Source: Owenia fusiformis (taxonomy: Eukaryota; Annelida; Polychaeta; Sabellida; Oweniidae). From it: a stretch of DNA of 64,000 bases. Below the pieces are notes generated by a model. It did not search any database. It was not told the DNA's origin and saw nothing but the letters and a program-made list of their open reading frames with translations. Below, piece by piece: positions 1-62,857 of this stretch (position 1 is its first letter; every line of letters begins with the position of its first letter). The translations under genes and the position numbers were made by a program. The stretch lies in the NCBI GenBank assembly GCA_903813345.2, contig CAIIXF020000003.1, positions 16,382,931-16,446,930 on the forward strand, written 5' to 3'.

Positions 1-161
1 AACTATCAACACTCAGCAACATGAAGATGATGTTTTACCACTATGCAACTGAGATGGCTGCTGTAGTCGAGGACCTCAAGAGTAAAGTTGACCAGATGGA
101 GACTCAAGATTCACATGAAGAGTCTGAATATTCCTTCTTTGATGATGAGATGCAAGAATGA
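1..161 (+). CDS. Array gene copy 0: small acidic coiled-coil protein (3' end only)
   Basis: This is the last 52 codons and TGA stop of the tandem small-protein gene; the 5' part lies before the window. The reading frame starts at base 3. The visible part covers the end of the coiled coil (NMKMMFYHYATEMAAVVEDL) and the acidic tail. It differs from most copies by D-to-H in the tail (DSHEESEY). The stop is followed 83 nt later by the family's stem-loop. It looks intact as far as it can be seen. Confidence 0.8.
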   Translation, partial: LSTLSNMKMMFYHYATEMAAVVEDLKSKVDQMETQDSHEESEYSFFDDEMQE

Positions 162-243
162 AGCAACAATCAACATGTATTGGAACTTCCATATTTTTGG
201 GGATGCGATGGGACCAAACTAGTTTAGCGCAACATACCAAAAC

Positions 244-259
244 GGTCCTTTTCAGGACC
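244..259 (+). terminator. Histone-type 3' stem-loop, copy 0
   Basis: The sequence AACGGTCCTTTTCAGGACC forms a perfect 6-bp stem (GGTCCT/AGGACC) with loop TTTC, followed by ACCTA. A purine-rich CAAAAGAGAA lies about 12 nt downstream, where the histone downstream element (U7 snRNA target) sits in histone genes. Confidence 0.88.
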
Positions 260-315
260 ACCTATTCTTACAAAAGAGAAGTTAAATTATGAATAACTAT
301 TTCTGCCCAACTTTC

Positions 316-600
316 TGTCTGATGTCAATGTTTATTTCAAGTGAGTGTATTAAACTGTCTGATGTCAATGTTTATTTCAAGTGAGTGTATTAAACTGTCT
401 GATCTCAATGTTTATTTCAAGTGAGTGTATTAAACTGTCTGATCTCAATGTTTATTTCAAGTGAGCGTATTAAACAGAGTAAAGTTTATAATCAGATTAT
501 GTTTTTAAACTGTCTTATGTTTTAAACTGTCTGATGTCAAAGTTTGAAATCGAAATTTGAGGTTTGCTCTCGATGTTTTAAACTGTCTGACTGTCTGATG
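316..600 (+). repeat. 40-bp tandem repeat block upstream of copy 1
   Basis: Four clear units and several decayed ones share AACTGTCTGATGTCAATG followed by TTTATTTCAAGTGAGTGTAT. Each good unit carries TGATGTCA or TGATCTCA, close to the CRE/ATF site TGACGTCA. Similar blocks precede almost every gene of the array. Confidence 0.85.
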
Positions 601-617
601 TCAGTGTTTATTTGAAG

Positions 618-649
618 TGACATCAGTTTCCTCTAGAATAGTATAAATA
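618..649 (+). promoter_or_regulatory. Core promoter of copy 1: reversed CRE-like octamer plus TATA box
   Basis: TGACATCA (618-625), the reverse complement of the upstream TGATGTCA repeats, stands 16 nt before TATAAATA (642-649). An initiator-like TCATTA begins at 671, about 30 nt after the TATA start, which would give a leader of about 55 nt. The segment is nearly identical in all copies. Confidence 0.8.
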
Positions 650-727
650 CTGTTTTGATTCTTGTTGAAGTCATTACTGATCTGACTTGCCTAACAATCA
701 CATCACAACTCTGGACAAACAAATGCA

Positions 728-1108
728 ATGGATTTATACTCTATACAAGAATCTGAAGCTTATGTAGTGTTAGAGAGAGACAACAGCCATGATTTGGAGG
801 AAACTACTGAACAACTCGACGTTGCCTATAGAAAATTCACAAGAGCATGTGAACAGCTGCTGTTGATTGATGACAAAGCCAAGATGGTAGAGTTAAGATA
901 CCAACGAGCCAAGCTACACCAGAGAGAGGCTCATCGCTACTCCCTGCGTCTACAACTATCAACACTCAGCAACATGAAGATGATGTTTTACCACTATGCA
1001 ACTGAGATGGCTGCTGTAGTCGAGGACCTCAAGAGTAAAGTTGACCAGATAGAGACTTCAGATGAAGAGTCTGAATATTTCTTCTTTGATGATGAGATGC
1101 AAGAATGA
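728..1108 (+). CDS. Array gene copy 1: small acidic coiled-coil protein, 126 aa
   Basis: I do not recognise this family. The 126-residue protein has an acidic N-terminus (MDLYSIQESEAYVVLERD), a long charged helix from about residue 27 to 107 with coiled-coil-like spacing (EQLDVAYRKF, AKMVELRYQRAKL, MAAVVEDLKSKVDQ), and an acidic tail ending SDEESEYFFFDDEMQE. There is no signal peptide, membrane segment, or histone-fold or zinc motif. Copies differ by few amino acids with many silent changes, which suggests purifying selection. The start is the first ATG after the TATA box and sits in a CAATGG context. The gene is intronless. This copy lacks the QD pair before the tail, so it is two residues shorter than its sisters. 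The promoter and histone-type 3' end suggest S-phase or embryonic expression (inference); the acidic tail would fit a chaperone-like role, but nothing proves it. Confidence 0.85.
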   Translation: MDLYSIQESEAYVVLERDNSHDLEETTEQLDVAYRKFTRACEQLLLIDDKAKMVELRYQRAKLHQREAHRYSLRLQLSTLSNMKMMFYHYATEMAAVVEDLKSKVDQIETSDEESEYFFFDDEMQE

Positions 1109-1190
1109 AGCAACAATCAACATGTACTGGAACTTCCATATTTTTTGGGATGCGATGGGACCAAAATAGTTTACCGCAACATACCAAAAC

Positions 1191-1206
1191 GGTCCTTTTC
1201 AGGACC
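1191..1206 (+). terminator. Histone-type 3' stem-loop, copy 1
   Basis: GGTCCT-TTTC-AGGACC with flanking AAAAC and ACTTA, 82 nt after the stop codon. The purine-rich ACAAAAGAGAAATT follows at about 1217-1230. Confidence 0.88.
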
Positions 1207-1229
1207 ACTTATTCTTACAAAAGAGAAAT

Positions 1230-1885
1230 TAGGTTATGAATAACTATTTCTGCCCAACTTTGGTTCGGTTGAATGAATTAATAGTTTCATTTACGATATC
1301 AGTAGGATTGTTGCTTGACAAAAATGAATACAAGTCTCTAGTCTAGTTTTAGCATAGAAAATCAAAACGGTGAAATTAGGAATGGTCATTCCACAATGCT
1401 TTGATTTTTTCATACGTTGCAAAATATTTTCTACCATGTCACTTAAAAGATACAAAATCACTGAAAGAACATATTTTCATTGAAACATTTTTCAAGGGAC
1501 AAGTTGGCAAAGCATCAATTTCAATCTCTAGAGTCAAGTTGTCACCTTGACAACCATATAATGAATGACCTTGGATGCAATGATTGGTTACTACTAGTAT
1601 ATAATGCACTGCAGTTATATGAAATACTATGTTTGGATTGGCTGTTATCGGACACAGCTTGCCTGGCTATGTGTGAATCATTTTTAACAAATAGGTCAAG
1701 TTGCAGATTGATCAAATTGAAGCAGTAGGTTTAATTATACAAATATCATGAATAAATATAACCTAAATAAGATGATAGGATAATTGAATATGATCATCAG
1801 AAATATCATAGTCCATTGTTAAAACATTGCATTACAAAGTTATAAAATCAATGTTTGGAACCAGTCTGATGTTTACTCTTGATGT
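1230..1885 (+). other. Spacer after copy 1 (no supported gene)
   Basis: This spacer is conserved with those at 4852-5510, 2870-3740, 6500-7380, 12410-12990 and 14120-14640. An 82-codon open frame at 1480-1728 and a 91-codon one at 5100-5375 are broken by stops in the sister spacers (for example TTGGATTAG at about 3520), so I treat them as chance frames. Confidence 0.6.
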
Positions 1886-1904
1886 TTTAACTCCTATGTC
1901 AAAG

Positions 1905-2240
1905 TTTGAAGTGAGTGTAATAAACTGTATGATGTAAATGGTTATTTGAAGCGAGTGTAATAAACTGTCTGATGTTACTGTTTATTCAAAGTGAGTGTAT
2001 TAAACTGTCTGATGTCAATGTTTCTTTGAAGTGAGTGTATTAAACTGTCTGATGTCAATGTTTCTGTAAAGTGAGTGTATTAATCTGTCTGATGTCAATG
2101 TTTATTTCAAGTATGCGTATTAAACAGAGTAATGTCTAACTTTATAATCAATCAGATTATGTTTTAAACTGTCTGATGTCAAAGTTTGAAATCAATGTTT
2201 GAGGTTTGCTCTTGATGTTTTAAAAGGTCTGATGTCAGTG
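1905..2240 (+). repeat. 40-bp CRE-like repeat block upstream of copy 2
   Basis: About six units of the 40-bp repeat (AACTGTCTGATGTCAATG core) followed by decayed units. The block ends just before the promoter segment. Confidence 0.85.
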
Positions 2241-2251
2241 TTTATTTGAAG

Positions 2252-2283
2252 TGACATCAGTTTCCTCTAGAATAGTATAAATA
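2252..2283 (+). promoter_or_regulatory. Core promoter of copy 2
   Basis: TGACATCA at 2252-2259 and TATAAATA at 2276-2283, with the same spacing as copy 1. The ATG follows 82 nt after the TATA start. Confidence 0.8.
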
Positions 2284-2357
2284 CTGCTTTGATTCTTGTT
2301 GAAGTCATTACTGATCTGACCTGCCTAGCAATCACATCACAACTCTCAACAAATATA

Positions 2358-2744
2358 ATGGATTCCTACTCTCTGCAAGAATCTGAAGCTTATGTAGTGT
2401 TAGAGAGAGACTACAGCCATGATTTGGAGGAACCTACTGAACAACTTGATGTTGCCTACAGAAAATTCACAAGAGCATGTGACCAGCTGCTACTGATTGA
2501 TGACAGAGCCAAAATGGTGGAGTTGCGCTACCAGCGAGCCAAGCTACAGCAGAGAGAGGCTCAACGCTACTCCTTACGTCTACAGTTATCAACACTCAGC
2601 AACATGAAGATGATGTTTTTCCACTATGCAACAGAGATGGCTGCTGTAGTTGAGGACCTCAAGAGTAAAGTTGACCAGATGGAGACTCAAGATTCAGATG
2701 AAGAGTCTGAATATTCCTTCTTTGATGATGAGATGCAAGAATGA
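2358..2744 (+). CDS. Array gene copy 2 (subtype B), 128 aa
   Basis: Same family as 728-1108, subtype B: SYSLQES, DLEEPTEQ, ACDQ, DDRAKM, KLQQREAQRYS, MMFFHY, tail DSDEESEYSFFDDEMQE. An upstream in-frame extension reaches back to a TTG at 2289. That TTG lies within about 6 nt of the TATA box and so upstream of any plausible transcript start, so the ATG at 2358 is chosen. The protein is identical to that of the copy at 5995-6381, which shows recent duplication or gene conversion. Confidence 0.87.
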   Translation: MDSYSLQESEAYVVLERDYSHDLEEPTEQLDVAYRKFTRACDQLLLIDDRAKMVELRYQRAKLQQREAQRYSLRLQLSTLSNMKMMFFHYATEMAAVVEDLKSKVDQMETQDSDEESEYSFFDDEMQE

Positions 2745-2826
2745 AGCAACAATCAACATGTATTGGAACTTCCATGTTTTTTGGGATGCGATGGGACCAA
2801 AATAGTTTAGCGCAACATACCAAAAC

Positions 2827-2842
2827 GGTCCTTTTCAGGACC
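2827..2842 (+). terminator. Histone-type 3' stem-loop, copy 2
   Basis: Perfect GGTCCT-TTTC-AGGACC followed by ACCTA, 82 nt after the stop. The purine-rich CAAAAGAGAAATT follows. Confidence 0.88.
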
Positions 2843-2869
2843 ACCTATTTTTTCAAAAGAGAAATTAAA

Positions 2870-3740
2870 TTATGAATAACTATTTCTGCCCAACTTTGAT
2901 TCGGTTGAATGAATTAATAATTTCATTTACAACATCAGTAGGATTGTTGTTTGACAAGATTGAATACAAGTCTCCAGTCTTGTTTTAGCATAGAAAATCA
3001 TTCTGCAATCATAAAATTGTCAGTTCCATTCTTTATTATAGAGTTCTCTAAGATCTCAATACTATTATGATAAGGTCACATCTGAAAATACATCCATTGT
3101 AAAGTTCAAAGTTATCTTCAACAACAATATTTGATGATTCATTGTATACTTAATGATTTAAACCCTGGACTCAGTGCAATGTGGAATGATCATTCCTTTA
3201 AGGTCTTGCTTTGCAAAATTTGCATGAGATGCGCAGCATCAAGTGTCAATTTTAGGAAACAATGCCTGAAAGGAATGGTCATTCCACAATGAATTGAGAC
3301 TTGGGCTTTATTTCTTTTCATACATTGCAAAATATTTTCTACCTTGTCACTTAAAAAATACAAAATCACTAAAAGAACGTATTTTGATAGAAACCTTTTG
3401 CGAGGGTAAAGTTGGCAAAGCATCAATTTCAACCTCTAGAGTCAAGTTATCACCTTAACAACCAAATAAGCAATGATTGGTTATATAATGCACTGCAGTT
3501 ATATGAAATACTGTGTTTGGATTAGCAGTTATCAGACACAGCTTGCCTAGCTATATGTGAATTATTTTTAACAAATAGGTCAAGTTGCAGATTGATCAAA
3601 TTGAAGGAGTGGGTTGAATTATACAAATATCATGGATAAATATAACCTACCTAAGATGATAGGATAACTAAATATGATCATCAGAAATATTTTAGTTCAT
3701 TATTAAAACATTGGATGAGTAACATTGCAAGCCCAATATC
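2870..3740 (+). other. Long spacer between copies 2 and 3
   Basis: This is the longer of the two spacer types. It contains an extra stretch of about 340 bp (3000-3340) absent from the short spacer, and two copies of a GGAATGATCATTCC-like palindromic motif (3184-3197; GGAATGGTCATTCC at 3271-3284). No gene is supported. It is duplicated at 6507-7378. Confidence 0.6.
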
Positions 3741-3754
3741 AAAGTTTGAAGAGA

Positions 3755-4200
3755 GTGTGGTAAACTGTCTGATGTTACTGTTTATTTGAAGTGAGTGTAT
3801 CAAACTGTCTGATGTCAATGTTTATTTGAAGTGAGTGTATTAAACTGTCTGATGTCAATGTTTATTTCAAGTGAGCATATTAAACTGTCTGATGTCAATG
3901 TATATTTCAAGTGAGTGTATTAAACTGTATGATGTCAATGTTTATTTGAAGTGAGTGTATTAAACTGTCTGACATCAATGTTTATTTCAAGTGAGCGCAT
4001 TAAACTGTCTGATGTCAATGTTTAGTTGAAGTGAGTGTATTAAACTGTCTGATGTCAATGTTTTTTTTGAAGTCAGTGTATTAAACAGTGTAATGTCTAT
4101 AAGTTTATAATCAGATTATATTTTAAACTGTCTTATGTTTTAAACTGTCGTCTGATGTCAAAGTTTGAAATCAATGTTTGAGGTTTGCTCTTGATGTTTT
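3755..4200 (+). repeat. 40-bp CRE-like repeat block upstream of copy 3
   Basis: The best-preserved block: about eight consecutive 40-bp units from 3755 to 4075, most carrying TGATGTCA, then decayed units. The period is exactly 40 (for example TTTATTTGAA at 3781 and 3821). Confidence 0.88.
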
Positions 4201-4230
4201 AAACTGTCTGATGTCAGTGTTTATTTGAAG

Positions 4231-4262
4231 TGACATCAGTTTCCTCTAGAAGAGTATAAATA
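4231..4262 (+). promoter_or_regulatory. Core promoter of copy 3
   Basis: TGACATCA at 4231-4238 and TATAAATA at 4255-4262. The surrounding segment matches the other copies. Confidence 0.8.
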
Positions 4263-4340
4263 CTGTTTTGATTCTTGTTGAAGTCATTACTGATCTGACT
4301 TGCCTAGCAATCACATTAGAGCTCTAAACAAACAAATACA

Positions 4341-4727
4341 ATGGATTCCTACTCTATGCAAGAATCTGAAGCTTATGTAGTGTTAGAGAGAGACTATAGC
4401 AATGATTATGAAGAAACTACTGAACAACTGGACGTTGCCTACAGAAAATTTACAAGAGCATGTGAACAGCTGCTACTGATTGATGACAGAGCCAAGATGG
4501 TGGAGTTACGCTACCAGCGAGCCAAGCTAAACCAGAAAGAGGCTCATCGCTACTCCCTGCGTCTACAACTATCAACACTCAGCAACATGAAGATGATGTT
4601 TTACCACTATGCAACTGAGATGGCTGCTGTAGTCGAGGACCTCAAGAGTAAAGTTGACCAGATGGAGACTCAAGATTCAGATGAAGAGTCTGAATATTTC
4701 TTCTTTGATGATGAGATGCAAGAATGA
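4341..4727 (+). CDS. Array gene copy 3 (subtype A), 128 aa
   Basis: Subtype A member: SYSMQES, DYSNDYEETTEQ, ACEQ, DDRAKM, KLNQKEAHRYS, MMFYHY, tail DSDEESEYFFFDDEMQE. The frame is intact from the CAATGG start to TGA. The flanks (4730-5510) are nearly identical to those of the copy at 728, so the two descend from one duplicated unit. Confidence 0.87.
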   Translation: MDSYSMQESEAYVVLERDYSNDYEETTEQLDVAYRKFTRACEQLLLIDDRAKMVELRYQRAKLNQKEAHRYSLRLQLSTLSNMKMMFYHYATEMAAVVEDLKSKVDQMETQDSDEESEYFFFDDEMQE

Positions 4728-4809
4728 AGCAACAATCAACATGTACTGGAACTTCCATATTTTTTGGGATGCGATGGGACCAAAATAGTTTACCGCAACA
4801 TACCAAAAC

Positions 4810-4825
4810 GGTCCTTTTCAGGACC
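4810..4825 (+). terminator. Histone-type 3' stem-loop, copy 3
   Basis: Perfect GGTCCT-TTTC-AGGACC followed by ACTTA, with ACAAAAGAGAAATT downstream. Confidence 0.88.
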
Positions 4826-5524
4826 ACTTATTCTTACAAAAGAGAAATTAGGTTATGAATAACTATTTCTGCCCAACTTTGGTTCGGTTGAATGAATTAA
4901 TAGTTTCATTTACGATATCAGTAGGATTGTTGCTTGACAAAAATGAATACAAGTCTCTAGTCTAGTTTTAGCATAGAAAATCAAAACGGTGAAATTAGGA
5001 ATGGTCATTCCACAATGCTTTGATTTTTTTCATACGTTGCAAAATATTTTCTACCATGTCACTTAAAAGATACAAAATCACTGAAAGAACATATTTTCAT
5101 TGAAACATTTTTTAAGGGACAAGTTGGCAAAGCATCAATTTCAATCTCTAGAGTCAAGTTGTCACCTTGACAACCATATAATGAATGACCTTGGATGCAA
5201 TGATTGGTTACTACTAGTATATAATGCACTGCAGTTATATGAAATACTATGTTTGGATTGGCTGTTATCGGACACAGCTTGCCTGGCTATGTGTGAATCG
5301 TTTTTAACAAATAGGTCTAGTTGCAGATTGATCAAATTGAAGGAGTGGGTTGAATTATACAAATATCATGGATAAATATAACCTAAATAAGATGATAGGA
5401 TAATTGAATATGATCATCAGAAATATCATAGTCCATTGTTAAAACATTGCATTACAAAGTTATAAAATCAATGTTTGGAACCAGTCTGATGTTTACTCTT
5501 GATGTTTTAACTCCAATGTCAAAG

Positions 5525-5865
5525 TTTGAAGTGAGTGTAATAAACTGTATGATGTAAATGTTTATTTCAAGCGAGTGTAATAAACTGTCTGATGTTACTG
5601 TTTATTCAAAGTGAGTGTATTAAACTGTCTGATGTCAATGTTTCTTTGAAGTGAGTGTATTAAACTGTCTGATGTCAATGTTTCTGTAAAGTGAGTGTAT
5701 TAATCTGTCTGATGTCAATGTTTATTTCAAGTATGCGTATTAAACAGAGTAATGTCTAACTTTATAATCAATCAGAGTATGTTTTAAACTGTCTAATGTT
5801 TTAAACTGTCTGATGTCAAAGTTTGAAATCAATGTTTGAGGTTTGCTCTTGATGTTTTAAAAAGT
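5525..5865 (+). repeat. 40-bp CRE-like repeat block upstream of copy 4
   Basis: Units of the 40-bp repeat, nearly identical in sequence to the block at 1905-2240. Confidence 0.85.
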
Positions 5866-5888
5866 CTGATGTCAGTGTTTATTTGAAG

Positions 5889-5920
5889 TGACATCAGTTT
5901 CCTCTAGAATAGTATAAATA
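5889..5920 (+). promoter_or_regulatory. Core promoter of copy 4
   Basis: TGACATCA at 5889-5896 and TATAAATA at 5913-5920. Confidence 0.8.
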
Positions 5921-5994
5921 CTGCTTTGATTCTTGTTGAAGTCATTACTGATCTGACCTGCCTAGCAATCACATCACAACTCTCAACAAATATA

Positions 5995-6381
5995 ATGGAT
6001 TCCTACTCTCTGCAAGAATCTGAAGCTTATGTAGTGTTAGAGAGAGACTACAGCCATGATTTGGAGGAACCTACTGAACAACTTGATGTTGCCTACAGAA
6101 AATTCACAAGAGCATGTGACCAGCTGCTACTGATTGATGACAGAGCCAAAATGGTGGAGTTGCGCTACCAGCGAGCCAAGCTACAGCAGAGAGAGGCTCA
6201 ACGCTACTCCTTACGTCTACAGTTATCAACACTCAGCAACATGAAGATGATGTTTTTCCACTATGCAACAGAGATGGCTGCTGTAGTTGAGGACCTCAAG
6301 AGTAAAGTTGACCAGATGGAGACTCAAGATTCAGATGAAGAGTCTGAATATTCCTTCTTTGATGATGAGATGCAAGAATGA
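5995..6381 (+). CDS. Array gene copy 4 (subtype B), 128 aa
   Basis: The protein is identical to copy 2 (2358-2744), and the surrounding spacers are almost identical too, with a distance of 3637 bp between the two ATGs. The upstream in-frame extension to 5926 starts with TTG and is not used in this call, for the same reason as in copy 2. Confidence 0.87.
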   Translation: MDSYSLQESEAYVVLERDYSHDLEEPTEQLDVAYRKFTRACDQLLLIDDRAKMVELRYQRAKLQQREAQRYSLRLQLSTLSNMKMMFFHYATEMAAVVEDLKSKVDQMETQDSDEESEYSFFDDEMQE

Positions 6382-6463
6382 AGCAACAATCAACATGTAT
6401 TGGAACTTCCATGTTTTTTGGGATGCGATGGGACCAAAATAGTTTAGCGCAACATACCAAAAC

Positions 6464-6479
6464 GGTCCTTTTCAGGACC
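6464..6479 (+). terminator. Histone-type 3' stem-loop, copy 4
   Basis: Perfect GGTCCT-TTTC-AGGACC followed by ACCTA, 82 nt after the stop. Confidence 0.88.
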
Positions 6480-7389
6480 ACCTATTTTTTCAAAAGAGAA
6501 ATTAAATTATGAATAACTATTTCTGCCCAACTTTGATTCGGTTGAATGAATTAATAATTTCATTTACAACATCAGTAGGATTGTTGTTTGACAAGATTGA
6601 ATACAAGTCTCCAGTCTTGTTTTAGCATAGAAAATCATTCTGCAATCATTAAATTGTCAGTTCCATTCTTTATTATAGAGTTCTCTAAGATCTCAATACT
6701 ATTATGATAAGGTCACATCTGAAAATACATCCATTGTAAAGTTCAAAGTTATCTTCAACAACAATATTTGATGATTCATTGTATACTTAATGATTTAAAC
6801 CCTGGACTCAGTGCAATGTGGAATGATCATTCCTTTAAGGTCTTGCTTTGCAAAATTTGCATGAGATGCGCAGCATCAAGTGTCAATTTTAGGAAACAAT
6901 GCCTGAAAGGAATGGTCATTCCACAATGAATTGAGACTTGGGCTTTATTTCTTTTCATACATTGCAAAATATTTTCTACCTTGTCACTTAAAAAATATAC
7001 AAAATCACTAAAAGAACGTATTTTGATAGAAACTTTTTGCGAGGGTAAAGTTGGCAAAGCATCAATTTCAACCTCTAGAGTCAAGTTATCACCTTAACAA
7101 CCAAATAAGCAGTGATTGGTTATATAATGCACTGCAGTTATATGAAATACTGTGTTTGGATTAGCAGTTATCAGACACAGCTTGCCTAGCTATATGTGAA
7201 TTATTTTTAACAAATAGGTCAAGTTGCAGATTGATCAAATTGAAGGAGTGGGTTGAATTATACAAATATCATGGATAAATATAACCTACCTAAGATGATA
7301 GGATAACTAAATATGATCATCAGAAATATTTTAGTTCATTATTAAAACATTGGATGAGTAACATTGCAAGTCCAATATCAAAGTTTGAA

Positions 7390-7850
7390 GAGAGTGTGGT
7401 AAACTGTCTGATGTTACTGTTTATTTGAAGTGAGTGTATCAAACTGTCTGATGTCAATGTTTATTTGAAGTGAGTATATTAAACTGTCTGATGTCAATGT
7501 TTATTTCAAGTGAGCATATTAAACTGTCTGATGTCAATGTATATTTCAAGTGAGTGTATTAAACTGTATGATGTCAATGTTTATTTGAAGTGAGTGTATT
7601 AAACTGTCTGATGTCAATGCTTATTTCAAGTGAGCGCATTAAACTGTCTGATGTCAATGTTTAGTTGAAGTGAGTGTATTAAACTGTCTGATGTCAATGT
7701 TTTTTTGAAGTCAGTGTATTAAACAGTGTAATGTCTATAAGTTTATAATCAGATTATATTTTAAACTGTCTTATGTTTTAAACTGTCGTCTGATGTCAAA
7801 GTTTGAAATCAATGTTTGAGGTTTGCTCTTGATGTTTTAAACTGTCTGAT
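7390..7850 (+). repeat. 40-bp CRE-like repeat block upstream of copy 5
   Basis: About eight units of the 40-bp repeat, nearly identical to the block at 3755-4200. Confidence 0.85.
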
Positions 7851-7868
7851 GTCAGTGTTTATTTGAAG

Positions 7869-7900
7869 TGACATCAGTTTCCTCTAGAATAGTATAAATA
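7869..7900 (+). promoter_or_regulatory. Core promoter of copy 5
   Basis: TGACATCA at 7869-7876 and TATAAATA at 7893-7900. The promoter is intact although the gene is damaged. Confidence 0.75.
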
Positions 7901-7977
7901 CTGTTTTGATTCTTGTTGAAGTCATTACTGAACTGACTTGCCTAGCATCACATCAGAGCTCTAAACAAACAAATACA

Positions 7978-8331
7978 ATGGATTCCTACTCTATTCAAGA
8001 ATCTGAAGCTTATGTAGTGTTAGAGAGAGACTATAGCCATGATTTGGAAGAAACTACTGAACAACTGGACGTTGCCTACAGAAAATTTACAAGAGCATGT
8101 GAACAGCTGCTGCTGATTGATGATAGAGCCAAGATGGTGGAGTTACCATACCAGCGAGCCAAACTAAACCAGAGAGAGGCTCATCGCTACTCCCTGCGTC
8201 TACAGTTATCAACACTCAGCAACATGAAGATGATGTTTTACCACTATGCAACAGAGATGGCTGCTGTAGTCGAGGACCTCAAGAGTAAAGTTGACCAGAT
8301 TGAGACTCAAGATTCAAGATTCAGAGTCTGA
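7978..8331 (+). pseudogene. Array gene copy 5: decaying subtype A copy, 117 codons
   Basis: The frame matches the family up to ...VDQIETQDS. There a small local duplication (AAGATTCAAGATTC) shifts it by one base, replacing the conserved acidic tail with RFRV and a stop. Other damage agrees with decay: R to P in VELPYQRAKL, which would break the helix, and a changed 3' stem-loop (GGTCCTTTACAGGACT, one wobble pair, loop TTAC). A truncated but translated protein remains possible. Confidence 0.7.
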
Positions 8332-8447
8332 ATATTCCTTCTTTGATGGTGAGATGTAAGAATGAAGCAAAAATCAACATGTATTGGAACTTCCATATTT
8401 TTGGGGATGCGATGGGACCCAAATGGCTTAGCGCAACATACCAAAAC

Positions 8448-8463
8448 GGTCCTTTACAGGACT
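8448..8463 (+). terminator. Altered histone-type stem-loop, copy 5
   Basis: GGTCCT-TTAC-AGGACT: the terminal pair is now G-T and the loop is TTAC instead of TTTC. This is one of the most diverged stem-loops of the set and it follows the damaged ORF. Confidence 0.7.
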
Positions 8464-8639
8464 ACCTATTCTTACAAAAGAGAAGTTAAATTATGAATAA
8501 CTATTTCTGCCCAACTTTGGTTCGGTTGAAAGAATTAATAATTTCATTTACGAAACAGTGGGATTGTTGCTTGACAAAAATAAATACAAGTCTCAAGTCA
8601 TGTTGTTTTTTGTGTCAAGTTGGCAAAGCATCAATTTCA

Positions 8640-8705
8640 ATCTCTTAATAAAGAGAAGTTAAATTATGAATAAACTATTTCTGCAAAACTTTGGTTGTAT
8701 CCTGA
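8640..8705 (+). repeat. Detached copy of the array 3' flank
   Basis: AAAGAGAAGTTAAATTATGA and the following bases repeat the segment just downstream of the stem-loops. They best match the flank of copy 8 (15720-15765). This marks the end of the first gene block. Confidence 0.6.
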
Positions 8706-9440
8706 AAATATAGGTTTTTCTCAACAATCCTTCCATAGACCTTCATATTTAAGATTTAGGATACTTCAGGATTTTATCAACGTCAACGCGGCAGCCTGAC
8801 GTATTTGCAACAAACGATTATATCTCTTAAGCAGCCTATACATTTTAGTTTTACTCGCATATTTGTATTTATATTTATGTACATTTACTATACACACTAA
8901 TTTAGAATTGCACCATAGGGCAACACCACCTTTCTTCAATTTACAAAAATTGTATATTTCTTTTACTAGCTTACAAGATATTGAAAGCATCTCATACTTT
9001 CATACAGTACTGCAGTACCGACCTTGGGGAAGGTACGATGATACGCTATGTCTTCCTTTTAATTTTTATAGAAAACGCAGATCAATAATGTCATTTTTTA
9101 TTAATCTTAAGAGTGTTAGGTAACAGGTCTATCTAGGCCTACGGCGTGCGTCTACGCGGTAGCTAGGCGTCGTCGTCAGTACAAAAAACAACAACAAAAC
9201 AATGAATGTTTGTAAAATATAGTCATTTTTTATAATTGCGTTACAATTAGGTGCTAGGCCAATCTTGGTTGGCGGCGTGCGTCTACGCGGTAGCTAGGCG
9301 TTGTCGTCAGTCCAAACAACAGCAATATTGTTTGTTTGTTTGTAAATAGTGATTATTTTCAATTTAACATTTACATAATTTGTATACATGTATCTCCTTT
9401 ATATAAAGGGCAATAAATATATACATACATACATACATCA
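8706..9440 (+). mobile_element. Possible LINE-type 3' end with (ATAC)n tail
   Basis: The stretch ends CAATAAATATATACATACAT and further ATAC units, a common tail of non-LTR retrotransposons. Short open frames occur on both strands (8863-9123 plus, 8766-8990 minus), but neither gives a convincing reverse-transcriptase motif. Inside is a 39-bp direct repeat (GGCGTGCGTCTACGCGGTAG...) at 9142-9180 and 9273-9311. The family is not identified. Confidence 0.3.
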
Positions 9441-10590
9441 CAAGTGGGTGCAAAATTTCACAATTTAGACCTTATTTGGTCAAATATGCCTATTTTTCAT
9501 AATTTCTCTCATTTTCAAATAGGTGCAAATGGATTCTCAGGTTGGCGCATGCCTATTATTAAAACCGCAAGCGGGTGCAATGCCCACTTGTTTTAATGCA
9601 GGAAGGATCATTGTTGTCTGACATTTTTGTTTGAAATCATATTTGCTGTTTAGAATCCTGGTATGACACTGACTTTTGATGTTTTAAACTGTCTGATGTC
9701 AACGTTTGAAATCATTGTTTGATGATTTGATCCCAATGTTTTAAACTATCTGATGTCACAATCTGAAACCATATTAAAGATATGCTATACAGATATGTAG
9801 GTCAGTATTACATAATCGTGAAATGAATAAGTCTGAATATATCATTGGTCAGAAAACACTAAAACCTGCTTGAAACTGTAAAAGTTTATACACTCTATTC
9901 CACACTGTATAGAAATAAAATAACTTACACTATAAGTAACTGTGAGCCAATCATTGCATAGAAAAAACTTTATGCACTGTTTATAAGATTCACTGAGACA
10001 AGTGGGTCAATACTTGGTGTACTTTATGTGCTCTCACACAATTACCTTCCCTTGCATAAAGTTGCTGTACAGTTATATGTAACTGAATATTGTATATTCA
10101 TCACAAACAACCTTAGCAAAATGATGGTTCGACGAAATGGACGGTTCGCTAAAACCAATAAACCAGGCAATTCAGGCCAATTTGGAAAGAAACTAGATAG
10201 CGTGATAGCGAATGAGGATAGTAAGTGAAATATATTTTGCAAAGGTCAGCTTGTAAACTACTGGGTAACCCTAAATGATGAGAAATATGTACAAAATATT
10301 TTTTGCATGATTTATTCATATCCCAATGATTTAACTCCTTCACTGCATCTAATAAGGTATATAGATACTAATTACGGGACATTTAGGAATTAAGTGACTA
10401 GACCAAAGCAAGCATGTTTGAGATTTTAATGATTTTAAATAAATTACCAAAATTATTTGCTTTTAGACATTCAATCAGTTTTATTTGTCCAACAAACCAT
10501 ATTCACAGTCCGTCCATCCATCCTTCAACTAGACAACAGCAACACCAAGTGTAGCAAATCCCATCGAACAGCCATGGCTGGCATTTTTTT
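9441..10590. other. Gap between the two gene blocks, mostly unexplained
   Basis: It contains a remnant of the array's CRE-like repeat (TGATGTTTTAAACTGTCTGA at about 9677) and an open frame starting at 10121 (MMVRRNGRFAKTNKPGNSGQ...). That frame runs into a consensus donor GTAAGT at 10221. A TTTTAG acceptor at 10461-10466 would continue it in phase to a stop at 10681. It could be a small two-exon gene or part of a transposon; I do not recognise it. Confidence 0.3.
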
Positions 10591-10611
10591 AAAAACAAAG
10601 TATACAGCAAA

Positions 10612-10995
10612 AATGGCAGCCATTTTTCAAAATGGCCACCTTCTACCAAAAGTGTCATTAGACAGTGTGCCACGCTTATAGTATTCACGCATCAAATATG
10701 AACAAAATCGCTCTACTACTTTTCGAGTTATAGTAAAATACGTTAAAATGACGGCCATTTTTCAAAATGGCTGCCTTCTATCAAAAGTGTCATTAGACAA
10801 TGTGCCATGCTTATAGTATTCACATACCAAATATGAACAAAATCGCTCCACTACTTTTCGTGTTATAGTAAAATACGTTAAAATGGCCGCCTTCTACCAG
10901 AAGAGTCATTAGACAGTGTGCCATGCTTATAGTATTCATATACCAAATATGAACAAAATCTTTCGACTACTTTTCGAGTTACAGCAAAAATCGTA
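10612..10995 (+). repeat. Three tandem units of about 130 bp
   Basis: Units begin near 10612, 10750 and 10882. They share AGTGTCATTAGACARTGTGC, CATGCTTATAGTATTCA and ACTACTTTTCGAGTTATAG, with the third unit shorter. ATGGCNGCC-like motifs recur between them. Confidence 0.75.
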
Positions 10996-10999
10996 AAAT

Positions 11000-11635
11000 A
11001 ACGAGTAAAGGCCGCCATAGTTCAATTCTTTGAAGCAAATGATTCTAAAAGTACAACATATTTTTGAAAAAATATCATTCTGTTCAGTGAAATTGTAAAA
11101 AATATTTTGCAATGTGTGAAATTGAATTAAAGCACATGATTCAATGAATAGTGGATGCTTCAATTCACTTATGTCTTCTAGTCTAGGCTTTGAATTCGGA
11201 CTACCACCCTCGTTCATAGTCTAGAATCAGGACATATGTTAAATTTAATCATCTACAATGCATTGAGTCATTGGCTTAAATCCTATAATATAATATGCCT
11301 ATCAATATAATATGTAATTATTTAAGTATCATCTCAATGCTTTAATTTTAATAGAATTATTTTAATATTTTACTAACTGTATAATATGTAGTTTGCATTA
11401 CTGTTGATAAATAAATAAATGATTGCACTGTTCAGTAAAGAAATATAGCAATTGTATTATTTAAACTGACTATACACTATAGAAATGATTTTCATTGAAA
11501 AAAAATTCTACGTGGTGAAAAGTTGCATATTGAGTAGTTAGTTAATGTTATGGTGTTAACAATTCAAAACAAAAAGGAATAAAGAAAAAATGCCACAGAG
11601 AAGTCTCAATAGAGTCTCTTTAACTGTCTAGAATA
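11000..11635. other. AT-rich intergenic stretch
   Basis: I see no gene or clear repeat here. The array sequence resumes at about 11640 with TTTTAAACAGTCTGATGTCA. Confidence 0.4.
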
Positions 11636-11788
11636 TGGTATTTCATGTTTTAAACAGTCTGATGTCATTGTTTCTTTGAAGTGACACCAGTTTCCTTGAA
11701 AATGGTATAAATAAATAAATATTGGCTGATCTCAATGTTTATTTCAAGTGAGCGTATTAAACTGTCTGATGACAGTGTTTCCTTGAAG

Positions 11789-11820
11789 TGACATCAGTTT
11801 CCTCTAGAATAGTATAAATA
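11789..11820 (+). promoter_or_regulatory. Core promoter of copy 6
   Basis: TGACATCA at 11789-11796 and TATAAATA at 11813-11820. This copy has only about 150 bp of upstream CRE-like repeats (11640-11788), far fewer than its sisters, and a duplicated partial promoter fragment (AATGGTATAAATAAATAAAT) at about 11700. Confidence 0.8.
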
Positions 11821-11898
11821 CTGTTTTGATTCTTGTTGAAGTCATTACTGATCTGACTTGCCTAGCAATCACATCACAACTCTAAACAAACAAATGCA

Positions 11899-12285
11899 AT
11901 GGATTCATACTCTATGCAAGAATCTGAAGCTTATGTAGTGTTAGAGAGAGACAACAGCCATGATTTGGAGGGAACTACTGAACAACTCGACGTTGCCAAT
12001 AGAAAATTCACAAGAGCATGTGAACAGCTGCTGTTGATTGATGACAAAGCCAAGATGGTAGAGTTAAGATACCAACGAGCCAAGCTACACCAGAGAGAGG
12101 CTCATCGCTACTCCCTGCGTCTACAACTATCAACACTCAGCAACACGAAGATGATGTTTTACCACTATGCAACTGAGATGGCTGCTGTAGTCGAGGACCT
12201 CAAGAGTAAAGTTGACCAGATGGAGACTCGAGATTCAGATGAAGAGTCTGAATATTCCTTCTTTGATGATGAGATGCATGAATGA
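11899..12285 (+). CDS. Array gene copy 6 (subtype A), 128 aa
   Basis: Subtype A: SYSMQES, DNSHDLEGTTEQ, VANRKF, ACEQ, DDKAKM, KLHQREAHRYS, with SNTKMMFYHY (M to T at a usually invariant site), METRDSDEE and an end of DDEMHE. It has more private substitutions than the other intact copies but an open frame throughout. Confidence 0.83.
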   Translation: MDSYSMQESEAYVVLERDNSHDLEGTTEQLDVANRKFTRACEQLLLIDDKAKMVELRYQRAKLHQREAHRYSLRLQLSTLSNTKMMFYHYATEMAAVVEDLKSKVDQMETRDSDEESEYSFFDDEMHE

Positions 12286-12367
12286 AGCAACAATCAACAT
12301 GTATTGGAACTTCCATATTTTTGGGGATGTGATGGAACCAAAATAGTGTAGCGCAACATACCAAAAC

Positions 12368-12383
12368 GGTCTTTTTCAGGACC
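12368..12383 (+). terminator. Histone-type 3' stem-loop, copy 6
   Basis: GGTCTT-TTTC-AGGACC: one C-to-T change leaves a G-T wobble, so the 6-bp stem survives. ACCTA follows. Confidence 0.82.
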
Positions 12384-13004
12384 ACCTATTCTTACAAAAG
12401 AGAAATTAAACTATGAATAACTATTTCTGCCAAACTTTGGTTCGGTTGAATGAATTAATAATTCATTTACGACATCAGTAGGATTGTTGCTTGACAAAAA
12501 TAAATACTAGTCTCCAGTCTTGTTGTTATTTTGCAAGGGTCAAGCTGGCAAAGCATCAATTTCAATCTCTAAAGTCAAGTTGTCACCTTGACAACCACAT
12601 AAGGAATAACCTTGAATGCAATGATTGATTATATAATGCCCTGCAGTTATATGAAATACTGTGTTTGGATTGACTGTTATCAGACACAGCTTGCCTAGCT
12701 ATAAGTGAATCATTTTTAACAAATAGGTCAAGTTGCAGATTGATCAAATTGAAGGAGTAGGTTGAATTATACCAATATCATGGATAAATACAACCTTACT
12801 AAGATGAAAGGATAATTGAATATGATCATCAGAAATAGTATAGTCCATTATTAAAACAATACATGAGTAACATTGTAATATTTGCTGTTGAGTGCCTTGT
12901 TGGTCTTACTTACTTTTGACAAAGTTTTAAAATCAATCTTTGGAATCAGTCTGATGTTTAATCTTGATGTTTTAAGTCAAATGTCAAAGTTCGAAGTGAG
13001 TGTA

Positions 13005-13370
13005 ATAAACTGACGGATGTCAATGTTTATTTGAAGTGAGTGTAATAAACTGTCTGATGTTACTGTTTATTTGAAGTGAGTGTATTAAACTGTGTGATGT
13101 CAATGTTTCTTTGAAGTGATTGTATTAAACTGTCTGTTGTCAATGTTTGTTGTTTGAAGTGAGTGTATTAAACTGTCTGTTGTCAATGTTTGTTGTTTGA
13201 AGTGAGTGTATTGAACTGTCTGATGACAATGTGTTTCATGTTTTTAACTGTCTGGTGTCAATGTTTGTTTGAAGTGCGTGTATTAAACTGTCTGATGACA
13301 ATTTGTTTCATGTGTTAAGTTTTGAAATCTTGAGTCAATGTTTGTTTGAAGGGAGTGTATTAAACAGTGT
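13005..13370 (+). repeat. CRE-like repeat block upstream of copy 7 (variant units)
   Basis: The units are more diverse here: some have TGTTGTCA or TGATGACA in place of TGATGTCA and a GTTGTTTGAAG insertion. Unit length varies between 40 and 44 bp. Confidence 0.75.
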
Positions 13371-13508
13371 AATGTCTAAGTTTATAATCAATCAGATTAT
13401 GTTTTAAACTGTCTTATGTTTTAAACTGTCTGATGTCAAAGTTTGAAATCAATGTTTGAGGTTTGCTCTTGATGTTTTAAAAAGTCTGATGTCAGTGTTT
13501 ATTTGAAG

Positions 13509-13540
13509 TGACATCAGTTTCCTCTAGAATAGTATAAATA
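13509..13540 (+). promoter_or_regulatory. Core promoter of copy 7
   Basis: TGACATCA at 13509-13516 and TATAAATA at 13533-13540. Confidence 0.8.
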
Positions 13541-13614
13541 CTGCTTTGATTCTTGTTGAAGTCATTACTGATCTGACCTGCCTAGCAATCACATCACAAC
13601 TCTCAACAAATATA

Positions 13615-14001
13615 ATGGATTCCTACTCTCTGCAAGAATCTGAAGGTTATGTAGTGTTAGAGAGAGACTACAGCCATGATTTGGAGGAACCTACTGAACA
13701 ACTTGATGTTGCCTACAGAAAATTCACAAGAGCATGTGACCAGCTGCTACTGATTGATGACAGAGCCAAAATGGTGGAGTTGCGCTACCAGCGAGCCAAG
13801 CTACACCAGAGAGAGGCTCAACGCTACTCCTTACGTCTACAGTTATCAACACTCAGCAACATGAAGATGATGTTTTACCACTATGCAACTGAGATGGCTG
13901 CTGTAGTTGAGGACCTCAAGAGTAAAGTTGACCAGATGGAGACTCAAGATTCAGATGAAGAGTCTGAATATTCCTTCTTTGATGATGAGATGCAAGAATG
14001 A
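13615..14001 (+). CDS. Array gene copy 7 (subtype B), 128 aa
   Basis: Subtype B: SYSLQESEGY (A to G), DLEEPTEQ, ACDQ, DDRAKM, KLHQREAQRYS, MMFYHY, complete acidic tail. The same upstream TTG-initiated extension (to 13546) exists and is not used in this call. The spacer downstream (14150-14640) is the short type. Confidence 0.86.
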   Translation: MDSYSLQESEGYVVLERDYSHDLEEPTEQLDVAYRKFTRACDQLLLIDDRAKMVELRYQRAKLHQREAQRYSLRLQLSTLSNMKMMFYHYATEMAAVVEDLKSKVDQMETQDSDEESEYSFFDDEMQE

Positions 14002-14083
14002 AGCAACAATCAACATGTATTGGAACTTCCATATTTTTGGGGATGCGATGGGTCCAAAATAGCTTAGCGCAACATACCGAAAC

Positions 14084-14099
14084 GGTCCTTCTCAGGACC
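14084..14099 (+). terminator. Histone-type 3' stem-loop, copy 7
   Basis: GGTCCT-TCTC-AGGACC: the stem is intact and the loop is TCTC rather than TTTC. ACCTA and CAAAAGAGAAGTT follow. Confidence 0.82.
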
Positions 14100-14649
14100 A
14101 CCTATTCTTACAAAAGAGAAGTTAAATTATGAATAACTATTCCTGCCCAACTTAAAAAATAAATACAAGTCTCCAGTCTTGTTGTTTTTTTGCAAGGGTC
14201 GAGTTGGCAATGCATCAAGTTCAATCTCCAGAGTCAAGTTGTCACCTTAACAACCACATAAGGAATGACCTTGAATGCAATGATTGATTATATAATGCCC
14301 TGCAGTTATATGAAATACTGTGTTTGGATTGACTGTTATCAGACACAGCTTGCCTAGCTATAAGTGAATCATTTTTAACAAATAGGTCAAGTTGCAGATT
14401 GATCAAATTGAAGGAGTAGGTATATCATGGATAAATACAACCTTACTAAGATGATAGGATAATTGAATATGATCATCAGAAATATTATAGTCCATTATTA
14501 AAACAATACATGAGTAACATTGTAATATTTGCTGTTGAGTGCCTTGTTGGTCTTACTTACTTTTGACAAAGTTTTAAAATCAATATCTTTGGAATCAGTC
14601 TGATGTTTACTCTTGATGTTTTAAGTCAAAGTTCGAAGTGAGTGTAATA

Positions 14650-15075
14650 AACTGTCGGATGTCAATGTTTATTTGAAGTGAGTGTATTAAACTGTCTGAT
14701 GTCAATGTTTATTTGAAGTGAGTGTAATAAACTGTCTGATGTTTATTTGAAGTGAATGTATTAAACTGTCTGATGTCAATGTTTATTTGAAGTGAGGGTA
14801 ATAAACTGTCTGATCTCAATGTTTATTTCAAGTGAGCGTATTAAACTGTCTGTTGTCAATGTTTATTTGAAGTGAATGTATTAAACTGTCTGATCTCAAT
14901 GTTTATTTCAAGTAACATATTAAACTGTCTAATGTCAATGTTTATTTGAAGTCAGTGTATTAAACAGTGTAATGTCTAAGTTTATAATCACATTATGTTT
15001 TAAACTGTCTTATGTTTTAAACTGTGTGATGTCAAAGTTTGAAATCATTGTTTGAGGTTTGCTCTTGATGTTTTA
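14650..15075 (+). repeat. 40-bp CRE-like repeat block upstream of copy 8
   Basis: About eight units with TGATGTCA, TGATCTCA or TGTTGTCA, some shortened. The block ends at the promoter segment. Confidence 0.83.
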
Positions 15076-15098
15076 AACTGTCTGATGTTTATTTGAAG

Positions 15099-15130
15099 TG
15101 ACATCAGTTTCCTCTAGAATAGTATAAATA
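15099..15130 (+). promoter_or_regulatory. Core promoter of copy 8
   Basis: TGACATCA at 15099-15106 and TATAAATA at 15123-15130. Confidence 0.8.
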
Positions 15131-15208
15131 CTGTTTTGATTCTTGTTGAAGTCATTACTGATCTGACTTGCCTAGCAATCACATCACAACTCTAAACAAA
15201 CAAATGCA

Positions 15209-15595
15209 ATGGATTCATACTCTATGCAAGAATCTGAAGCGTATGTAGTGTTAGAGAGAGACAACAGCCATGATTTGGAGGGAACTACTGAACAACTCGA
15301 CGTTGCCTTTAGAAAATTCACAAGAGCATGTGACCAGCTGCTGTTGATTGATGACAAAGCCAAGATGGTAGAATTAAGATACCAACGAGCCAAGCTACAC
15401 AAGAGAGAGGCACATCGCTACTCCCTGCGTCTACAACTATCAACACTCAGCAACATGAAGATGATGTTTTACCACTATGCAACTGAGATGGCTGCTGTAG
15501 TCGAGGACCTCAAGAGTAAAGTTGACCAGATGGAGACTCAAGATTCAGATGAAGAGTCTGAATATTCCTTCTTTGATGATGAGATGAAGCAATGA
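15209..15595 (+). CDS. Array gene copy 8 (subtype A), 128 aa
   Basis: Last copy of the array. Subtype A: SYSMQES, DNSHDLEGTTEQ, VAFRKF, ACDQ, DDKAKM, KLHKREAHRYS. The end is DDEMKQ instead of DDEMQE because a short GAAGAAT-type duplication sits at the stop (15585-15610). Otherwise complete. Confidence 0.85.
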   Translation: MDSYSMQESEAYVVLERDNSHDLEGTTEQLDVAFRKFTRACDQLLLIDDKAKMVELRYQRAKLHKREAHRYSLRLQLSTLSNMKMMFYHYATEMAAVVEDLKSKVDQMETQDSDEESEYSFFDDEMKQ

Positions 15596-15691
15596 AGAAT
15601 GAAGAATGAAGCAACAATCAACATGTATTGGAACTTCCATATTTTTGGGGATGCGATGGGACCAAAATGGTTTAGCGCAACATACCAAAAC

Positions 15692-15707
15692 GGTCCTTTT
15701 AAGGACC
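15692..15707 (+). terminator. Histone-type 3' stem-loop, copy 8
   Basis: GGTCCT-TTTA-AGGACC: the stem is intact, the loop ends in A, and ACATA follows in place of ACCTA. Confidence 0.8.
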
Positions 15708-15779
15708 ACATATTCTTACAAAAGAGAAGTTAAATTATGAATAAACTATTTCTGCACAACTTTGGTTATATCTTTAAGA

Positions 15780-33219: not shown

Positions 33220-33339
33220 TCTAAAATTTCTAGATTAATTGCTATTATGTTTATACATATTTTCATAACCTATGTGACTAACATTCATGTCTCAACCATC
33301 TGACTTTTGACTTATAATAGAGAATGACCTTTGATATCA

Positions 33340-34737: not shown

Positions 34738-35803
34738 TCCTGGTCAACTCAACCCCAAGTCAACTCAACCCAAGTCAACTCAACCCTTAGTCAAGTCGAC
34801 CCCAAGTCAAGTCGACCCTTAGTCAAGTCGACCCCAAGTCATCTCGACCCTTAGTCAACTCGACCCCAAGTCATCTCAACCCTTGGTCAACTCAACCCTT
34901 AGTCAAGTCGACCCAAATGATTTTACTTGTTTTAAGTAGATTAAAATACAATATAATCCAATTGTTTGTGCAGTTTGATTTGAAATCAAACTTCAAAGAA
35001 AAAAACATTTCTGTCACCTATAGATCAAAACGAAGATTTAAACTGGATCATAAAATCCCAATCTGATTGTTTATGACACCTGACATATGAGTAAGATAAT
35101 GGAAAATAGAAAAACATAAATCCCATTGTTTGTCCAGTCTTGTTTTAAAATCTTACTTCAAAAAAAATAAACATTTCTATCGTCTGTAGATCAGAAGGAA
35201 GATTTGAACCGGATCATATTGTTTATTGTTTATTATTATTATCAAAATATAAAATCATTCAATACAAAGTAATGGATGGATGTTGGCACAATGCACATGT
35301 TGCATAAGTTACCTGTTGTCAAAAATACTGTTGCAACAATTTCGGTATAACAGAAAAGTGTATAGATAATTTTTTTTATTTCAGAGAGATTAAACAAGCT
35401 CAAATATGAAGGGGTGAAATATATGTTTAGCATCGTGAATAGTCCTATTAAGATTAAGATTAATCAAATATTATTTTGTTATTTATAAAAATTATAAATG
35501 CGTTAAGCACAAACTTCAATAGGTGATAATTTTATTTTGGAAAATTAGCATTTTAGTCCCTCATTCTTTCAAAATTCATCAATATCATACCATGAAAATA
35601 GTATATCTATTTGTTTTTTATGGTGGGGTCGAGTTGACTAAGGGTTGAGATGACCAAGGGTTGAGATGACTTGGGGTCGAGTTGACTAAGGGTCGAGATG
35701 ACTTGGGGTCGACTTGACTAAGGGTCGACATGACTTGGGGTCGACTTGACTAAGGGTTGAGTTGACTTGGGTTGAGTTGACTTGGGGTTGAGTTGACCAG
35801 TTA
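34738..35803. repeat. Inverted pair of a 16-bp minisatellite (fold-back-like element)
   Basis: The left array (34740-34915) repeats AGTCAACTCAACCCC and AGTCAAGTCGACCCC units; the right array (35626-35800) is its reverse complement. The outer ends mirror each other (CTGGTCAACTCAACCCC and GGGGTTGAGTTGACCAG). The interior of about 0.7 kb holds a 100-bp direct duplication (34952-35051 and 35117-35217). No clear target duplication seen. Confidence 0.65.

Positions 35804-55655: not shown

Positions 55656-62857
<7,202 letters not shown>

Follow-up and report, generated by a model that had tools for sequence, protein, structure and literature searches.

We analysed a window of 64,000 nucleotides (nt) from the annelid Owenia fusiformis (assembly GCA_903813345.2, contig CAIIXF020000003.1, positions 16,382,931 to 16,446,930 of the forward strand). 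From position 1 to ~15,770 it contains nine same-strand, head-to-tail copies of one gene, here numbered c1 to c9, whose predicted product is not a histone and whose copies all end in a stem-loop of the histone mRNA type. A first-pass annotation, made from the sequence alone, had described nine copies of an intronless, TATA-driven and tandemly repeated gene. The number nine was confirmed, with the qualification that c1 is only partial, being interrupted at the window edge; sequence comparison and blastn identified the 3′ part of its coding sequence (CDS) at 1..161, with the stop codon at 159-161. Copies c2-c9 are complete, and in their sequences the lack of introns, the TATA boxes and the tandem arrangement were all borne out. 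Their CDSs, on the + strand like that of c1, lie at 728..1108 (c2), 2358..2744 (c3), 4341..4727 (c4), 5995..6381 (c5), 7978..8331 (c6), 11899..12285 (c7), 13615..14001 (c8) and 15209..15595 (c9). Each is an uninterrupted, intronless open reading frame (ORF), encoding 128 amino acids (aa) in six copies, 126 aa in c2 and 117 aa in c6. The description also had to be corrected for c6 (7978-8364), where a small insertion shifts the frame, shortens the C-terminus and removes the acidic C-terminal tail. This copy also has the weakest stem-loop and is possibly decaying. Between c6 and c7, ~3 kb are free of gene copies. Beside this gap lies a lone 44-nt piece of the 3′ flank of the gene (8650-8693, 91% identity), which is perhaps the remnant of a further copy, and the 4-kb bin at the gap has a CpG ratio of 0.62, compared with ~0.3 in the adjoining bins.

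A TATAAA box was present 82-86 nt upstream of the ATG in 8/8 complete copies, at 642, 2276, 4255, 5913, 7893, 11813, 13533 and 15123 in c2 to c9, respectively. It is followed by an initiator-like TCATT site; counted from the first T of the TATA box, the A of this site lies 31 nt downstream. Given cleavage 5 nt past the stem, the predicted mRNA is 539-559 nt long. In the leaders of c2, c7 and c9 (3/8), an extra out-of-frame ATG starts 5 nt before the main ATG (e.g. 723-725). Each complete gene is preceded on the + strand by a minisatellite stretch with a ~40-bp unit, these stretches lying within 312..14954. When up to 5 mismatches were allowed, a 33-nt core of the repeat had 49 matches, 3-9 per gene; outside these stretches, the + strand of the window had none. 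One core match is the proximal promoter element itself in 7/8 copies, the element of c9 carrying a deletion. The alignment score of the c3 promoter element with the repeat was 63, whereas the best of 500 shuffles reached 31. Judged by this resemblance, the ~40-bp repeats read like duplicated promoter-element enhancers.

Downstream of the ORF, the hairpin GGTCCT-TTTC-AGGACC or a near form of it had been annotated about 83 nt after every stop codon. All nine stem-loops were found, at 244..259 (c1), 1191..1206 (c2), 2827..2842 (c3), 4810..4825 (c4), 6464..6479 (c5), 8448..8463 (c6), 12368..12383 (c7), 14084..14099 (c8) and 15692..15707 (c9), all on the + strand; c1 has the sequence as quoted, and c6-c9 are variants in the stem or the loop. 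The distance of 82 nt holds in 7/9 copies, the others being c9 with 96 nt and c6 with 116 nt, the latter because the frameshift ends the c6 ORF early. Stem substitutions among the copies were confined to c6, in which one end pair is G-T, and c7, in which one C-G pair has become T-G; both yield G-T pairs, so that pairing is kept. Loop changes were seen in c6 (TTAC), c8 (TCTC) and c9 (TTTA). RNA folding of eight segments, with c5 omitted as identical to c3 in this region, returned the same hairpin each time (z −1.6 to −4.1), with the 6-bp stem and 4-nt loop of the Histone3 model.

When the 64-kb window was searched with 4227 Rfam families using cmscan, 9/9 stem-loops matched Histone3 (RF00032) at E 0.047 or better, every match spanning model positions 1-46. 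Seven of them passed the gathering score of 34 bits, with scores of 37.9 (c1), 36.8 (c2), 39.0 (c3), 36.8 (c4), 39.0 (c5), 35.0 (c8) and 37.3 bits (c9) and E-values from 6.2e-8, the value for c3, to 1.9e-6. No Rfam family other than RF00032 reached its gathering score in the window. In alignments of 8/9 copies, two stem pairs differ from the Rfam consensus on both sides with pairing kept. A degenerate stem-loop motif (up to 2 mismatches) had 11 matches in the window compared with 2.23 expected, a number that 0/100 shuffles reached. Nine of the 11 are the gene copies, one is the 15692 site matched again on the opposite strand, and one is a palindrome at 37506 without an Rfam match. Because the copies share an ancestor, the nine stem-loops should be read as one strong observation repeated rather than as nine independent ones. 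Weighing against a complete signal in every copy, c6 (23.3 bits, E 0.047) and c7 (31.2 bits, E 5.1e-5) fell below the gathering score.

The purine-rich, U7-type target that had been proposed after the stem was also found. The sequence CAAAAGAGAA, which includes AAAGAG, is identical in 9/9 copies and always lies 11 nt downstream of the stem, at 271-280, 1218-1227 and 2854-2863 in c1-c3, at 4837-4846, 6491-6500 and 8475-8484 in c4-c6, and at 12395-12404, 14111-14120 and 15719-15728 in c7-c9 (all +). Among the nine copies, 0/10 sites of the element vary, compared with 3 in the 11-nt spacer before it and 4 in the 10 nt after it. AAAGAG is described as the purine core of the histone downstream element (HDE) of mouse H2a, with CUCUUU at the 5′ end of U7 as its partner and CPSF73 cutting between the stem-loop and the HDE (PMC7026596). 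By its sequence and position, CAAAAGAGAA corresponds to such a purine-rich downstream element and is a putative U7 pairing site. Every part of the histone-style gene format that is visible in sequence and had been claimed for this array is thus present, namely the stem-loop, its flanks, the purine element, the TATA box, the intronless ORF and the tandem arrangement. These features suggest that the array is probably a tandem non-histone gene family that uses the complete format of replication-dependent histone mRNAs.

The earlier statement that the product is not a histone agrees with Pfam, in which none of the 8 complete copies matched a histone family at E up to 1. A histone product was rejected, as neither a histone fold nor a linker-histone domain family was found. 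The sole Pfam family matched by all 8 copies at this threshold was tubulin-binding cofactor A (TBCA, PF02970), a helper in tubulin folding. The resemblance is weak, with a best E-value of 1.6e-4; the three copies with values shown had E-values of 3.1e-4 (c9), 7.4e-4 (c3) and 1.8e-3 and scores of 19.0-21.5 bits. Ten heptad-preserving shuffles gave no TBCA match in Pfam, their best E-value for any family being 0.004. We also built a TBCA profile from four PDB TBCAs (1h7c, 1qsd, 3mxz and 4cqi). It scored the copies at 17.3-22.4 bits, compared with maxima of 12.9 bits for heptad shuffles (4997 reported of 5000), 11.7 for 5000 full shuffles, 12.8 for 347 ORF pieces from elsewhere in the window and 2.4 for reversed copies. 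When a second profile was built from these four TBCAs, the best non-TBCA chain among 177,635 PDB sequences, a keratin, reached 15.6 bits, and the hhalign P-value of the copies against TBCA was 2e-4. The profile match rests on the C-terminal half, where YSLRLQ...KMM...VEDLKS aligns with YDIKKQ...RMM...DL. Ten residues are invariant in the four PDB TBCAs; five fall in the aligned C-terminal half, of which Q, D and L match, and the five N-terminal ones are outside the local alignment.

Several results weigh against a relationship with TBCA. The Pfam matches are below the gathering score of 30.3 bits, and the hhalign probability was 45%, or 3% when a global alignment was forced. The invariant proline of the MMIP motif is absent, and the last invariant L is replaced by V. 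In PDB, a profile of the copies ranked a bS21 chain (E 9e-4) over TBCA (E 0.023), as did a single-copy search (0.01 versus 0.21). We set bS21 aside as a chance match, since Pfam, searched up to an E-value of 1, showed no S21 family; a chance match at E 9e-4 is also a warning about the TBCA match. In addition, a search with human TBCA alone gave 18.9 bits (E 0.016) for an Spc42 coiled coil, and coiled coils can therefore reach such scores. AlphaFold, run on the very shallow input of eight near-identical sequences, predicted one continuous helix over residues 24-127 (predicted local distance difference test, pLDDT, 80; predicted template modelling score, pTM, 0.41) in contrast to the three-helix bundle of TBCA. 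Residues 25-115 of c9 alone also gave a single helix (pLDDT 95, pTM 0.53), and Foldseek, in which only this second model was searched, returned 0 PDB matches. We take the modelling outcome, as computed from such input, neither to support TBCA nor to exclude it.

The format may therefore be as described while the protein is unrelated to TBCA, being instead a fast-evolving coiled-coil protein or a chromatin-associated acidic protein made alongside histones. The single predicted helix, the empty Foldseek result for the second model, the subthreshold Pfam scores, coiled-coil decoys of 15.6-18.9 bits and the isoelectric point of the c3 protein (4.5 overall but 8.8 in the helical core) would all fit this explanation. 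It does not account for TBCA being the only family common to all 8 copies, nor for profile scores that exceed those of the shuffles and of the best non-TBCA PDB chain. We consider it a serious competitor whose chances fall somewhat short of even. With the reservation raised by Spc42, the sequence similarity to TBCA appears to go beyond what composition and coiled-coil decoys produce. Descent of the protein from TBCA is, in our estimate, slightly favoured, and is a lead rather than proof.

A different possibility concerns the 3′ end. It could be derived from a histone gene and work only partly, with downstream polyadenylation in most cells or with both kinds of end being formed. Such a mixture may have a precedent, in that the bdelloid rotifer genes H2Abd and H2Abd1 are described as carrying a stem-loop together with a putative poly(A) signal (PMC2642717). 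In the array, ATTAAA occurs 22 nt past the stem in c3, c5 and c7, and AATAAA 33-116 nt past the stem in c6, c7, c8 and c9, the one at +116 being common to c6 and c7; these hexamers count against an exclusively histone-type end. However, in the 8 × 500 nt downstream of the stems, AATAAA and ATTAAA were each found 6 times, compared with 5.3 and 5.7, respectively, expected at the window rate, and are thus at background. No conserved polyadenylation signal was detected, as no hexamer position was common to more than 3/8 copies, and c2 and c4 had neither AATAAA nor ATTAAA within 500 nt downstream of the stem. We therefore regard a partly working 3′ end as unlikely.

Slightly less likely still is the explanation that the copies are largely untranscribed relics of a recently amplified gene, in which the stem-loop persists by duplication or conversion. 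In its favour, c6 is frameshifted, and duplication has been recent: 315-4962 and 3925-8599 match at 96.6%, a large duplication, and c3 and c5 are identical across a 631-nt query. By these comparisons, recent duplication and conversion evidently contribute to the conservation of the array, which tempers any argument from conservation. Moreover, selection on the stem-loop is inseparable from duplication and conversion because the mean pairwise divergence of c2-c9 is 0.081 in the stem-loop region and 0.062 in the CDS. The ORF, however, is under purifying selection. The pooled ratio of nonsynonymous to synonymous differences (pN/pS) was 0.19 over the 28 pairs of c2-c9, synonymous changes were in excess in each of four pairs tested (one-sided Fisher p 0.003 to 3e-8), and 7/8 complete copies retain the full-length ORF. 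Synonymous distance divided the copies into three groups (c2, c7 and c9; c3, c5 and c8; c4 and c6). Within groups, where changes are few, the evidence is less favourable: pN/pS was 0.42-0.76 in four pairs and undefined in two, of which one, c2-c7, had replacements only.

The distribution of divergence also argues against relics. Mean pairwise divergence was 0.055 in the 3′ untranslated region and 0.100 in the purine-element segment. Over the whole stretch that begins with the proximal promoter and ends with the purine element it stayed at 0.055-0.10, compared with 0.272 in the upstream spacer and 0.213, then 0.400, farther downstream. In 15-nt bins, between-group divergence was 0.02-0.14 from −14 of the stem to +75, and beyond this point, ~75 nt past the stem start, it rose to 0.21-0.78; on the other side, it was 0-0.02 in the 30 nt before the TATA box and 0.06-0.94 in bins farther upstream. 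The conserved block therefore coincides approximately with the predicted transcript and its processing signals. Finally, a chance or compositional origin of the hairpin, for which nothing speaks but the AT-rich context, can be practically dismissed, since an E-value of 6e-8 in a single copy, over 64 kb and 4227 families, is enough to exclude it and the position is fixed in nine copies.

SLBP and the U7 small nuclear ribonucleoprotein (snRNP) direct the cleavage of replication-dependent histone transcripts, leaving the stem-loop as the 3′ end. On the reading that the array follows the complete histone format, RNA polymerase II would start at the initiator ~31 nt past the TATA box and produce an intronless pre-mRNA. 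With SLBP bound to the stem-loop and the U7 snRNP base-paired to CAAAAGAGAA, cleavage a few nt past the stem would yield a non-polyadenylated mRNA of ~540-560 nt. The protein made from it would be small, acidic and mostly helical; it is probably a divergent TBCA relative and may serve in tubulin folding. Because tandem copies are combined with a histone-type 3′ end, a fast and large burst of synthesis in S phase, in oocytes or in the germ line is possible. In the most specific version of this proposal, the non-histone client of SLBP and U7 is a tubulin chaperone that descends from TBCA, has been tandemly amplified and shares its regulation with histones in the germ line or during cleavage; this version is put forward tentatively and is, as a whole, somewhat less likely than not.

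We looked for relatives of the array elsewhere. None was confirmed in viral contigs (54 pattern stretches) or in prokaryote genome contigs (101). One viral contig, L001, phage-like by eye, had the combined stem-loop and purine pattern; it matched no Rfam family at an E-value cut-off of 0.5 and was taken as chance, and a stricter stem-loop pattern had no match in viral contigs. The c9 protein, the one copy scanned, matched no phage family in PHROGs. Within the window, a listing of ORFs with a minimum length of 62 aa, which excluded the array stretches and a zinc-finger ORF, comprised 113 entries, and 94 of these were compared with Pfam at an E-value threshold of 0.001. Only Sulfatase_C, Sulfatase and Phosphodiest were matched, and no histone family was found among these 94. 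An exon-like ORF at 57261-57497 (−) resembles the C-terminal region of arylsulfatase (Sulfatase_C, E 9.5e-6, under the cut-off). At 23311-33234 (−), a single frame of 3307 codons stays open for nearly 10 kb and by eye contains many repeats resembling C2H2 zinc fingers. Two tandem arrays with 16-bp units (34743-34914 and 35626-35797), ~0.7 kb apart, look mutually inverted by eye, and a long hairpin at 60778-60887 weakly resembles mir-36 (27.4 bits, cut-off 48, E 0.099).

PMC2781718 states that SLBP has never been implicated in the direct regulation of non-histone genes. In searches of the open-licence literature, none of the titles and abstract starts listed described a gene of this format with a product other than a histone; novelty is provisional because paywalled literature was outside the search. 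If the proposal is true, mRNA ends of the histone type are used by a second class of gene, which would mean that RNA signals confer the specificity of the histone 3′-end machinery and that it can be co-opted during evolution. The array would also allow the purpose of such a 3′ end, namely bulk, rapid and cell-cycle-limited supply, to be tested independently of histones. If the protein is both TBCA-derived and co-regulated, building blocks of chromatin and spindle would come from one replication-linked programme.

The array shares with animal replication-dependent histone genes the stem-loop, its flanks, the AAAGAG purine element, the TATA box, the intronless ORF and the tandem copies, and differs from them in its non-histone product and in its upstream arrays of ~40-bp repeats. 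The H2A variants of bdelloid rotifers are likewise unusual stem-loop genes, although they still encode histones and, according to PMC2642717, contain introns as well as a putative poly(A) signal. With TBCA (PF02970), the protein has in common the C-terminal Y-x-L-x-x-Q, MM and DL, a helical region of similar length and a weak score above decoys; it differs in scoring under the Pfam cut-off, in lacking the invariant proline, in its prediction as one helix and in its long acidic tail.

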